From contig NZ_CP107254.1 in assembly GCF_029229925.1 (NCBI RefSeq), positions 2,170,001 to 2,234,000 on the forward strand: DNA of 64,000 nt. Direction: 5' to 3'. Position 1 is the stretch's first letter; the number at the start of each line of letters is the position of its first letter. Origin of the DNA: Halorhabdus sp. BNX81 (GTDB lineage: Archaea; Halobacteriota; Halobacteria; Halobacteriales; Haloarculaceae). The position numbers and the translations under genes were made by a program. Under the pieces are notes generated by a model, which searched no databases, was not told where the DNA came from, and saw only the letters and a list, made by a program, of their open reading frames with translations. Shown here in pieces: positions 17,825 to 20,209 of the stretch.

Positions 17825-18724
17825 TCATTCCTTGCTTTCGTGTTTATCAGCCATATCTTCCTTGAATTCTTCAATCGTGTTTGCGAGAAGATTGGTATCC
17901 ACCGGCATATCAAATATGAACTCTCCCAATTGTTCTGCGCGCTCTCTGTCTGACCAAGTTGAGTTTCGGTGGTCTGATCTATGGGAATGATGTAAATCAA
18001 GTAATTGAAGAAAAGCATATTTTTGAAACTGGTTTTGGGACCGTTTTATCAGATCGAAGGCCCTTGTAATGTGCTCAGTATATTCTCCGATGGAACCTGA
18101 ATACGGTAGTTTCACTTTGAGTTTGTCCGCATGTATTTCGCCTGTTTCAACTCCTTTGACATGTGGAGAAGTAAGAAAACCAATTGGATCAATATCTTGT
18201 TCATTTGAATATGTTCCAGCCGCCATTATTGATAGTCTTTTTAAACTTAGTCCGGGTGGGCAAACATCCTCAAGTTCACCAGTATCAATCTGAAGTGTGA
18301 CTATCGTGATCCAGTGATTTGTCAATATTGCTTTGAACCGTTCAGAAAACGACGATGAGTTCCGACTGTCTTCCAAGCTTGAAAAGATATCATCCACTTC
18401 AATTTGTTGAACGTCACTTGATTGATTTTCTGGAGTGTACTTCGGTCGAACAGTTATTGATTCAACCGATAATTCTACTTGGTTATTTTTATAGTTTCTA
18501 AAAGTTATTGACTCGCCACGAAAATCAGAATGAAGCTCATTTTCTATACGATAGCCAGTCCGTCTATCCATGATTATGTCAAAAGTCGCTCTAGCCCCGG
18601 AGACGATTAGTTTTCCAATCATTTTCCCTGCTATTGAATTGCCGTAGTTGATAATGAATACTTCATCAATATGGATTTTGAGAAGGGCAATGAAATTTCT
18701 TGTGTATGAGGGCACAGATAACAA
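17825..18724 (-). CDS. AT-rich hypothetical protein, probably horizontally acquired
   Basis: About 299 residues of unknown family. The base composition and codon use are clearly AT-rich compared with every neighbour, and the product is less acidic and contains more Ile, Asn, Ser and Lys. There is no signal peptide, membrane helix or recognisable motif. The C-terminal half (RSQNQFQKYAFLQLLDLHHS, then DRERAEQLGEFIFDMPV) looks helical. The frame opens with TTG at 18724; GTG at 18715 is another choice and no ATG is near. Dense TATA-like sequence (18740-18770) lies upstream. It sits beside a toxin-antitoxin pair, so the segment may be a mobile remnant or defence cargo. Confidence 0.65.
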   Translation of the reverse strand: MLSVPSYTRNFIALLKIHIDEVFIINYGNSIAGKMIGKLIVSGARATFDIIMDRRTGYRIENELHSDFRGESITFRNYKNNQVELSVESITVRPKYTPENQSSDVQQIEVDDIFSSLEDSRNSSSFSERFKAILTNHWITIVTLQIDTGELEDVCPPGLSLKRLSIMAAGTYSNEQDIDPIGFLTSPHVKGVETGEIHADKLKVKLPYSGSIGEYTEHITRAFDLIKRSQNQFQKYAFLQLLDLHHSHRSDHRNSTWSDRERAEQLGEFIFDMPVDTNLLANTIEEFKEDMADKHESKE

Positions 18725-19211: not shown

Positions 19212-19696
19212 TCGTCGCGGACACGAGCGCGCTGGTCTCACTCGCGTCGATCAACCGATTGGATCTCCTCCTCGCGGAGTTCGATGTCCGCACTACGGAG
19301 ACGGTAGTTTCGGAACTGAAAGAGATGGCCGACTACGCGGATAGCCACGGCAGGGCCGCCCAAGCGGTGCTCGACCGGCAGGAAACCCTTGCCGTCCACG
19401 AAGTCGACGAACCGATCGAGTCGGGACGGATCGATGTTGGCGAAGGGAGCGCGGTTGTCCTCGCCCGGGAACGCAACGCCGACTTCCTCATCACCGACGA
19501 CCTGCGTGCGCTCCCGGAACTCCAGGCCGTAACAGAGACACGAATCGCCGTCTCGCCGATCGTGTTGCGGGCGTTGGTCGATCGTGGCGTGCTGGATGGC
19601 GAGGACGCACTGGCGGCTGTGGAACAATTGGCTGACGAGCGGGACTGGCTCGGCGCACCGATCTATCGGCGGGCGAGAGAGTTGTTTGAGGGATAG
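19208..19696 (+). CDS. PIN-domain toxin (VapC/DUF3368-like)
   Basis: A 162-residue PIN-domain RNase. Acidic positions are visible: Asp5 in MIVADTSALVSL, Glu in TTETVVSELKEM, the IDVGEGSAVVLARE block and the paired Asp in ADFLITDDLRALPEL. The GEGSAV...ITDD arrangement is typical of the DUF3368-type PIN subfamily. It is translated from an ATGA overlap with its antitoxin. The expected target is tRNA or rRNA. All catalytic positions appear intact, unlike in the other PIN gene at 7.8 kb. Confidence 0.85.
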   Translation: MIVADTSALVSLASINRLDLLLAEFDVRTTETVVSELKEMADYADSHGRAAQAVLDRQETLAVHEVDEPIESGRIDVGEGSAVVLARERNADFLITDDLRALPELQAVTETRIAVSPIVLRALVDRGVLDGEDALAAVEQLADERDWLGAPIYRRARELFEG

Positions 19697-20209
19697 TTCT
19701 AATGAGAATTTGAAAAGAGCGACACCACTCTGAAAGCCCTCGTCAGTTCCGGTCCCGCGACTCTCAAGGGTCGCTACGCTCCCCGTTCGAGCGATCCGAG
19801 ACGCTCACTCCGTTCGCGTCTCGCGCTCGTTGTCGCCGGAAATCGGAGATTTCCGAGATGACCGTTGGACGTAGTCCAACGAACCTGCAAGCGGGCCTGC
19901 GGCCCGCGAGCAGATGACGAAAGAGTCGTCCGAGAGAGCGCGACGCGCTCTTTCGGACGACTTCGCTCTTTCGGACCACGCGCTTCGGACGATCCGCGTC
20001 CTGTAGTGTCTGCTCACGGGCGCGAAGCGCCGTATGCTCGCGGGCTGATGGCCCGTGCGCGGCGCTGTGCGCCGCGAGTTCGAGGCGGTGCAACCGCCTC
20101 GCAGCCGCCACGCGTGGCTCGCCCTTTCGGTCCACCAGGATTCAGCATATTCACCAGCAGAAAGTAGCACTTTGATTGATGCTTATCTGAACACCGCCGA
20201 GTGCGTATT
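19697..20209. repeat. Gene-free region with a cluster of about ten short hairpins
   Basis: No credible gene is present; the frames open here have shadow-like composition. Between 19798 and 20118 lie many near-perfect inverted repeats, most with a 3-nt loop: 19798-19822 (7-bp arms, 11-nt loop), 19837-19855 (8 bp, loop GGA), 19864-19880 (7 bp, GTA), 19891-19907 (7 bp, TGC), 19924-19962 (18 bp with one G-T, GAC), 20019-20031 (5 bp, GAA), 20041-20055 (5 bp, 5-nt loop), 20058-20076 (8 bp, TGT), 20081-20101 (9 bp, GCA) and 20107-20118 (loop-free palindrome). Arm sequences differ from one hairpin to the next. It could be a structured RNA, a mobile-element remnant or a haloarchaeal intergenic repeat class. 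Confidence 0.7.

Follow-up and report, generated by a model that had tools for sequence, protein, structure and literature searches.

A hairpin-dense tract in Halorhabdus as a probable mosaic of an IS6-type MITE and nested double-hairpin units

We analysed a dense cluster of short hairpins in a 64-kb stretch of a Halorhabdus genome (the window; the host genome is a single contig of 2.83 Mb). It is very probably a mosaic of nested mobile DNA, in which double-hairpin units have been inserted into an IS6-type MITE. The final step of this reading, in which the units are moved as folded single-stranded DNA by a Y1 transposase, is put forward much more tentatively. We do not read the cluster as a single structured RNA or as a retron, and the units are selfish repeats that require no host function as an explanation. 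Judged by homology, an IS6-type MITE entered the interval that separates vapC from the gene for transcription factor S, and did so before the divergence of two Halorhabdus species. Comparison of filled and empty sites indicates that short double-hairpin elements, typically 54 bp, then entered the MITE and one another at G^C with no target duplication; later changes, as read from the two species, comprise the loss of whole hairpins and the flipping of loops. The elements may move as single-stranded DNA in which two very stable minihairpins make up a three-way junction, with an IS200/IS605-type Y1 transposase serving them in trans, a scheme already proposed for bacterial REPINs.

Upstream of the cluster lie a gene for a ribbon-helix-helix antitoxin (PF01402) and a 162-aa ORF, a putative vapC by its position and start, which had no Pfam or NCBIfam match. 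The convergent gene downstream, on the minus strand, encodes transcription factor S (TIGR01384). The element described here (19690-20198) sits between vapC (plus strand) and this gene. Its degenerate left end appears to supply the vapC stop codon TAG (19694-19696), and its right end lies within 15-20 bp of the stop codon for transcription factor S. Farther upstream, an AT-rich ORF of 299 aa on the minus strand (17825-18724; about 38% G+C vs 65% for the genome) had no Pfam match and is probably a recent acquisition. The parts of the element are as follows.

19690 to 20198, plus strand: probable composite mobile element, a degenerate IS6-type MITE with nested hairpin units (MITE alignment and exact right terminal repeat).
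19690 to 19710, plus strand: left terminal repeat, degenerate (GGATAGTTCTAATGAGAAT), containing the vapC stop TAG (sequence and MITE alignment).
19764 to 19832, plus strand: inserted hairpin tract including GAGACGC...GCGTCTC, absent from 208-bp MITEs.
19833 to 19978, plus strand: outer double-hairpin element, TCGC[hp1]AGATGA[hp2]GACCA (covariance-model match at 19832-19886, E=9e-9).
19837 to 19855, plus strand: hairpin 1, CGGAAATC-GGA-GATTTCCG, found in 91 of 292 haloarchaeal genomes.
19862 to 19912, plus strand: second inserted hairpin pair, CGTTGGAC-GTA and GCGGGCC-TGC, within the spacer and flanked by direct GATGA repeats.
19926 to 19960, plus strand: nested double-hairpin element, shortened to one hairpin; complete in the sister species.
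20016 to 20113, plus strand: further inserted hairpin tract (hairpins 20019-20031, 20058-20076 and 20081-20101), absent from 208-bp MITEs.
20182 to 20198, minus strand: right terminal inverted repeat GGCGGTGTTCAGATAAG, with an exact GTGTTCAGATAAG at 20182-20194.

The original prediction, made from the sequence alone, had described a dense hairpin cluster here. The cluster is real, and its hairpins lie where they had been placed. Those with perfect arms and a 3-nt loop are listed below.

19837 to 19855: perfect 3-nt-loop hairpin.
19863 to 19881: perfect 3-nt-loop hairpin.
19891 to 19907: perfect 3-nt-loop hairpin.
19935 to 19951: perfect 3-nt-loop hairpin, the core of an 18-bp stem (19924-19962) with one G.T pair.
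20019 to 20031: perfect 3-nt-loop hairpin.
20058 to 20076: perfect 3-nt-loop hairpin.
20081 to 20101: perfect 3-nt-loop hairpin.

As a null for hairpin counts we used 1000 dinucleotide shuffles of 19798-20118, and the excess of 3-nt-loop hairpins that had been expected over shuffled sequence was found. The interval holds five perfect hairpins with 3-nt loops and arms of 7 bp or more (shuffle mean 0.047), and six when arms of 5 bp or more are counted (0.59 shuffled), numbers that 0 of 1000 shuffles reached in either case; these counts omit the GAC-loop hairpin, whose loop G and C could pair. Loops of 4-8 nt with arms of at least 7 bp gave no hairpins in the same interval. Folding was likewise 6.6-8.9 SD below the shuffles (z-scores of -8.7 as DNA, -8.9 as plus-strand RNA, and -6.6 as minus-strand RNA). 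The excess is local, because this is the sole cluster of its kind within the window and no special 3-nt-loop excess was found overall in 424 kb sampled from the same genome; a genome-wide surplus of 3-nt loops was thus rejected, none being seen outside clusters in that sample.

The frame of the element reads as an old, degenerate, non-autonomous IS6-type MITE. Three of its stretches could be aligned with 208-bp MITE copies: 19696-19763, about 19979-20014, and 20115-20198. Seven other copies have paired GTGTTCAGATAAG terminal repeats and exact 8-bp target duplications, read from their flanks (for example CACGCTCG in locus L046, CCCCGTAC in L056, and ATTCAGGG in L023). The same GTGTTCAGATAAG ends bound 689-bp elements in a relative (G005) that encode an IS6-family transposase (NF033587, E=1e-56). 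Besides the basic 208-bp form we found one copy of 122 bp and longer ones of 360, 369, 526, and 584 bp that differ by hairpin inserts. The window element thus shares its terminal repeat with IS6-family MITEs, whose other copies show the 8-bp duplications and whose ends recur around an IS6-family transposase in a relative. Unlike typical members of that class, it has a degenerate left end and no recognisable target duplication, and its length consists mostly of later insertions. The two ORFs tested across 19690-20198 for a transposase gene had no Pfam match.

Hairpin-bearing units were added within this frame. The tract at 19764-19832 recurs alone elsewhere (query positions 1-43 matched in the same genome and in relatives). 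The outer element (19833-19978) was placed at a G^C of the MITE by comparison of empty MITEs with L029, which carries this insertion in simple form, and it has itself been enlarged by two more insertions. The first is the hairpin pair at 19862-19912, which is present in the window and in L022 vs the spacer alone in L029. The second is the nested element, which sits at G^C inside the second hairpin of the outer unit; deleting 19926-19960 yields CGAAAGAGCTTCGCTCTTTCG, exactly hairpin 2 of L029. The last tract (20016-20113) has 48- and 50-bp pieces that are 98-100% identical in L025/L028. In other loci the same hairpins occur in different combinations. The claim that the arm sequences are unrelated did not quite hold: identical arms turn up in further clusters, both of this genome and of relatives. 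We also observed hairpin 1 in four haloarchaeal mosaics (L112, L114, L115, and L116), where it lies close to (G)ATGAAAAGGGCGAG and GAGGGCTTTC ends; this may point to a wider composite-repeat family with other termini.

The syntenic locus of the sister species (L021, in G006) has near-identical flanks, and its differences from the window are whole hairpins: one hairpin of 19-20 nt is missing, and one 27-nt and one 48-nt hairpin-bearing piece are present. It holds a full 62-bp copy of the nested element with two hairpins (covariance-model match, E=7e-14). Two loops are reverse-complemented between the loci (GTA/TAC and GAC/GTC). On this alignment, the recent differences between the two Halorhabdus species look like hairpin losses, not gains.

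The central unit among the inserts is a recurrent 54-bp double hairpin of the form TCGTY-[8-3-8]-TGATSA-[8-3-8]-RACSA, which is exactly 54 bp long at 127 of 131 sites. With inner arms and loops left unconstrained, a strict pattern (TCGTYCG-N15-CGTGATSACG-N15-CGRACSAC) matched 86 places in 56 of 292 haloarchaeal genomes and 32 of 77 genera, and its reversed control had no match in these 292 genomes. A covariance model gave matches at E<=1e-4 in 179 of 194 haloarchaeal genomes, a looser set that will include other hairpin pairs. These searches strongly bear out the expectation that similar sequences occur elsewhere in haloarchaea. Among 84,980 species genomes, at least 120 stretches matched the unit pattern, and all 80 matches listed carried haloarchaeal names or came from a few 'uncultured archaeon' records, scaffolds that we take to be haloarchaeal; going by these listed matches, the unit is likely absent outside haloarchaea. 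Similar hairpin pairs may exist beyond the class Halobacteria, where the covariance model gave weaker matches in six genomes. Three genomes of another class of the phylum (G336, G345, and G352) had 20-25 moderate matches each. A virus origin was rejected, as the pattern had no match in a viral contig collection. We found no published description of the 54-bp unit in the literature searched. A side observation concerns coding sequence: in L177 (G092:C6), and also in L185, a unit, its 54 bp being a multiple of 3, lies in frame inside tnpB with a 452-aa frame running through it, which recalls the Rickettsia palindromic elements found in coding genes.

The case for mobility is entirely comparative. 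The 131 unit sites fall into 29 unrelated flank contexts across haloarchaea, in either orientation. When the flanks were joined and searched against the loci at hand, gap-free empty counterparts were found for 99 sites in 21 of the 29 contexts (up to 100% identity over 104 nt and 98.3% over 120 nt). The base left of the unit is G in all 29 contexts, although the pattern did not demand it; the C on the right, which the main pattern required, is weaker evidence than the left G. No target duplication was seen at the 54-bp unit insertions. One MITE site took two independent insertions that point in opposite directions and are separated by 4 nt (L029; L023/L025). As read from such aligned loci, insertion of the units is precise, falls at G^C, leaves no duplication, and can also occur within another unit, while hairpins are lost and loops flip. 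The original argument, that selection or some generating process must lie behind separate hairpins of like geometry, is borne out by these mobile units, and the filled and empty sites likewise bear out the option of a hairpin-making mobile element. Nothing of the retron kind was seen at the cluster.

A separate 49-bp double hairpin occupies AACGCT^CGGGATTCC of an IS605-type right end, with about 25 empty and 8 filled copies across several families. Two genomes hold both filled and empty copies, and one copy has a single hairpin. This family has the form GAGCAAATC...GATTCGCTTGACT in seven genomes (G004, G092, G121, G134, G180, G191, and G217), and a compensatory arm variant is present. Deletion with no insertion was rejected as the general cause because empty is the common state both at the 49-bp site and at the MITE, and it was kept for the recent difference between the species. 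The window, L028/L029, and the IS605 right ends had also suggested that insertions prefer hairpin loops; this rule was dropped because only 5 of 29 flanks agreed with it vs 5.8 expected.

The units could instead have been hairpins made in place by template switching during replication, with imperfect inverted repeats turned into perfect ones and no mobile unit involved. Such a process would account for the GTA/TAC and GAC/GTC loop flips seen between the sister species and for stems that change fast yet keep near-perfect arms, but it cannot explain how one 54-bp unit, its ends and spacer unchanged, came to lie in 29 unrelated flanks, of which 21 have exact empty sites. We consider it very improbable, and as a sole cause it is refuted; it may well have acted on the units later.

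The stems do show the compensatory changes for which a check had been suggested, and the cause more likely lies at the DNA level. The inner arm pairs (n=1020, from 27 arm types) comprise 983 Watson-Crick pairs, 10 G.T, and 27 others, 10 of them A.C. If pairing acted at the RNA level, G.U would be expected to be tolerated more than A.C. Loops were GNA or TNC in 127 of 170 cases (75% vs 12.5% expected from composition), split 61:66 overall and 21:23 in oriented elements. We infer that the working form is folded DNA and not RNA, because G.T is no commoner than A.C (the numbers are small) and the loops are equal on either strand. GNA triloops closed by G-C pairs form extraordinarily stable DNA minihairpins (PMC4686876).

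These data also bear on whether the stems belong to a structured non-coding RNA under selection for RNA pairing, for example a 3' UTR element or a section of an omegaRNA, which serves as guide for IS200/IS605 TnpB. Covariation is strong (28 cells changed on both sides vs 9 shuffled), many copies are found at the omegaRNA-encoding right ends of IS200/IS605 elements, and omegaRNAs exist in Halobacterium (PMC12558985). The equal numbers of G.T and A.C pairs, the equal frequency of GNA and TNC loops even in oriented elements, the many unrelated contexts in either orientation, and the lack of an Rfam match at the gathering score (best chance-level E=0.63) make this reading unlikely, and the structured RNA offered by the original prediction is disfavoured with it.

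For the mosaic of mobile units, the remaining choice concerns the enzyme. An IS200-type Y1 transposase is our best guess, for which the missing target duplication, the paired hairpins, and the Y1-bearing genomes speak: a Y1 transposase was found in 9 of 9 element-rich vs 6 of 15 element-free genomes (p=0.004, for groups chosen after the counts were seen). IS200/IS605 elements also rank among the main hosts of the insertions, which confounds this link. REPINs are defined with a cognate single-copy RAYT that has REPs at its flanks; the Y1_Tnp matches in element-rich genomes are IS200-like, and some adjoin or are interrupted by a unit. Double-hairpin units were observed inside or beside IS200-type Y1 transposase genes at G203:C1:727598-728011, G092:C23:158788-159010, and G294:C1:461518-461979, and one of these genes has a stop codon within the matched stretch. 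The IS200-like TnpA subclass 1.1 is the sole one reported in Archaea (PMC6006769).

The same mosaic could have been moved by other means, such as palindrome-to-palindrome recombination or gene conversion, or some other enzyme, and we give this close to an even chance, somewhat above the Y1 step. The Halorhabdus genome itself bears units and has no Y1_Tnp match, Y1 genes do occur in those 6 of 15 element-free genomes, and IS200/IS605 elements are frequent hosts, with many copies lying in palindromes of mobile elements. In some genomes, unit copies have spread along with a host PATE-like element. The 'enigmatic' repeats of Haloquadratum move though nearly all tnpA genes there are broken (PMC3119063). 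On the other side, the Y1 model fits the missing target duplication, the hairpin at either end, and the association of units with genomes that bear Y1. A broader proposal, which we put forward tentatively, is that the 54-bp units are a distinct, haloarchaea-wide class of mobile DNA that moves as folded single strands with GNA minihairpins, targets G^C without duplication, and builds nests within other units and within other transposons, and whose arms would stay perfect and loops flip as each move or replication recopies the hairpin.

Haloarchaea thus have a REPIN-like miniature element, in 56 of 292 genomes by the strict pattern and in most genomes by the looser model. Because its boundaries and empty sites are exact and its target dinucleotide is known, its mobiliser and a single-stranded DNA intermediate are directly testable. 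It explains hairpin-dense tracts that might otherwise be taken for structured RNAs or annotated as spurious ORFs, and units are also found in frame inside tnpB genes.

By analogy, the unit appears to work like a REPIN or a small mobile repeat of Haloquadratum, and may be regarded as an archaeal counterpart of bacterial REPINs. With REPINs and the head-to-head REP dimers that make up part of the CGTC superfamily (Bertels and Rainey, 2011, PMC3116915; Di Nocera et al., 2013, PMC3733652) it shares two inverted short hairpins dispersed at 131 sites, a short spacer, an outer tag (TCGTY here), 8-9-bp stems, and common heterodimers. This tag agrees only partly with the GTAG/CGTC definition: the stem is preceded by TCGTC or TCGTT, so some units read CGTC there and the others CGTT. 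Among bacterial CGTC/GTAG dimers, some are likewise embedded in other palindromes, and no transposase is known for CGTC REPs. In contrast to the 4-5-nt loops and AT at stem positions 1-2 of these REPs, the unit has 3-nt GNA/TNC loops and stems that start with CG; it differs from REPINs further in its TGATSA spacer, the lack of a CCA tail, its exact 54 bp, its G^C target, and its haloarchaeal host. Fungal and sponge mitochondrial double hairpin and repetitive hairpin elements (for example PMC2800124) are likewise described as small mobile intergenic hairpins, organellar unlike the unit. SMR-A and SMR-B of Haloquadratum walsbyi (Dyall-Smith et al., 2011, PMC3119063), described there for Haloquadratum only, are haloarchaeal repeats with terminal inverted repeats unrelated to transposons, and the main text describes no double triloop hairpin. 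Compared by description only, these repeats differ in length (about 110 bp for SMR-A and 80 bp for HqIRS41 vs 54 bp, exact at 127 of 131 sites), whereas the absence of target duplication and the insertion into palindromes of IS605-type elements and PATEs agree with the 54-bp unit.
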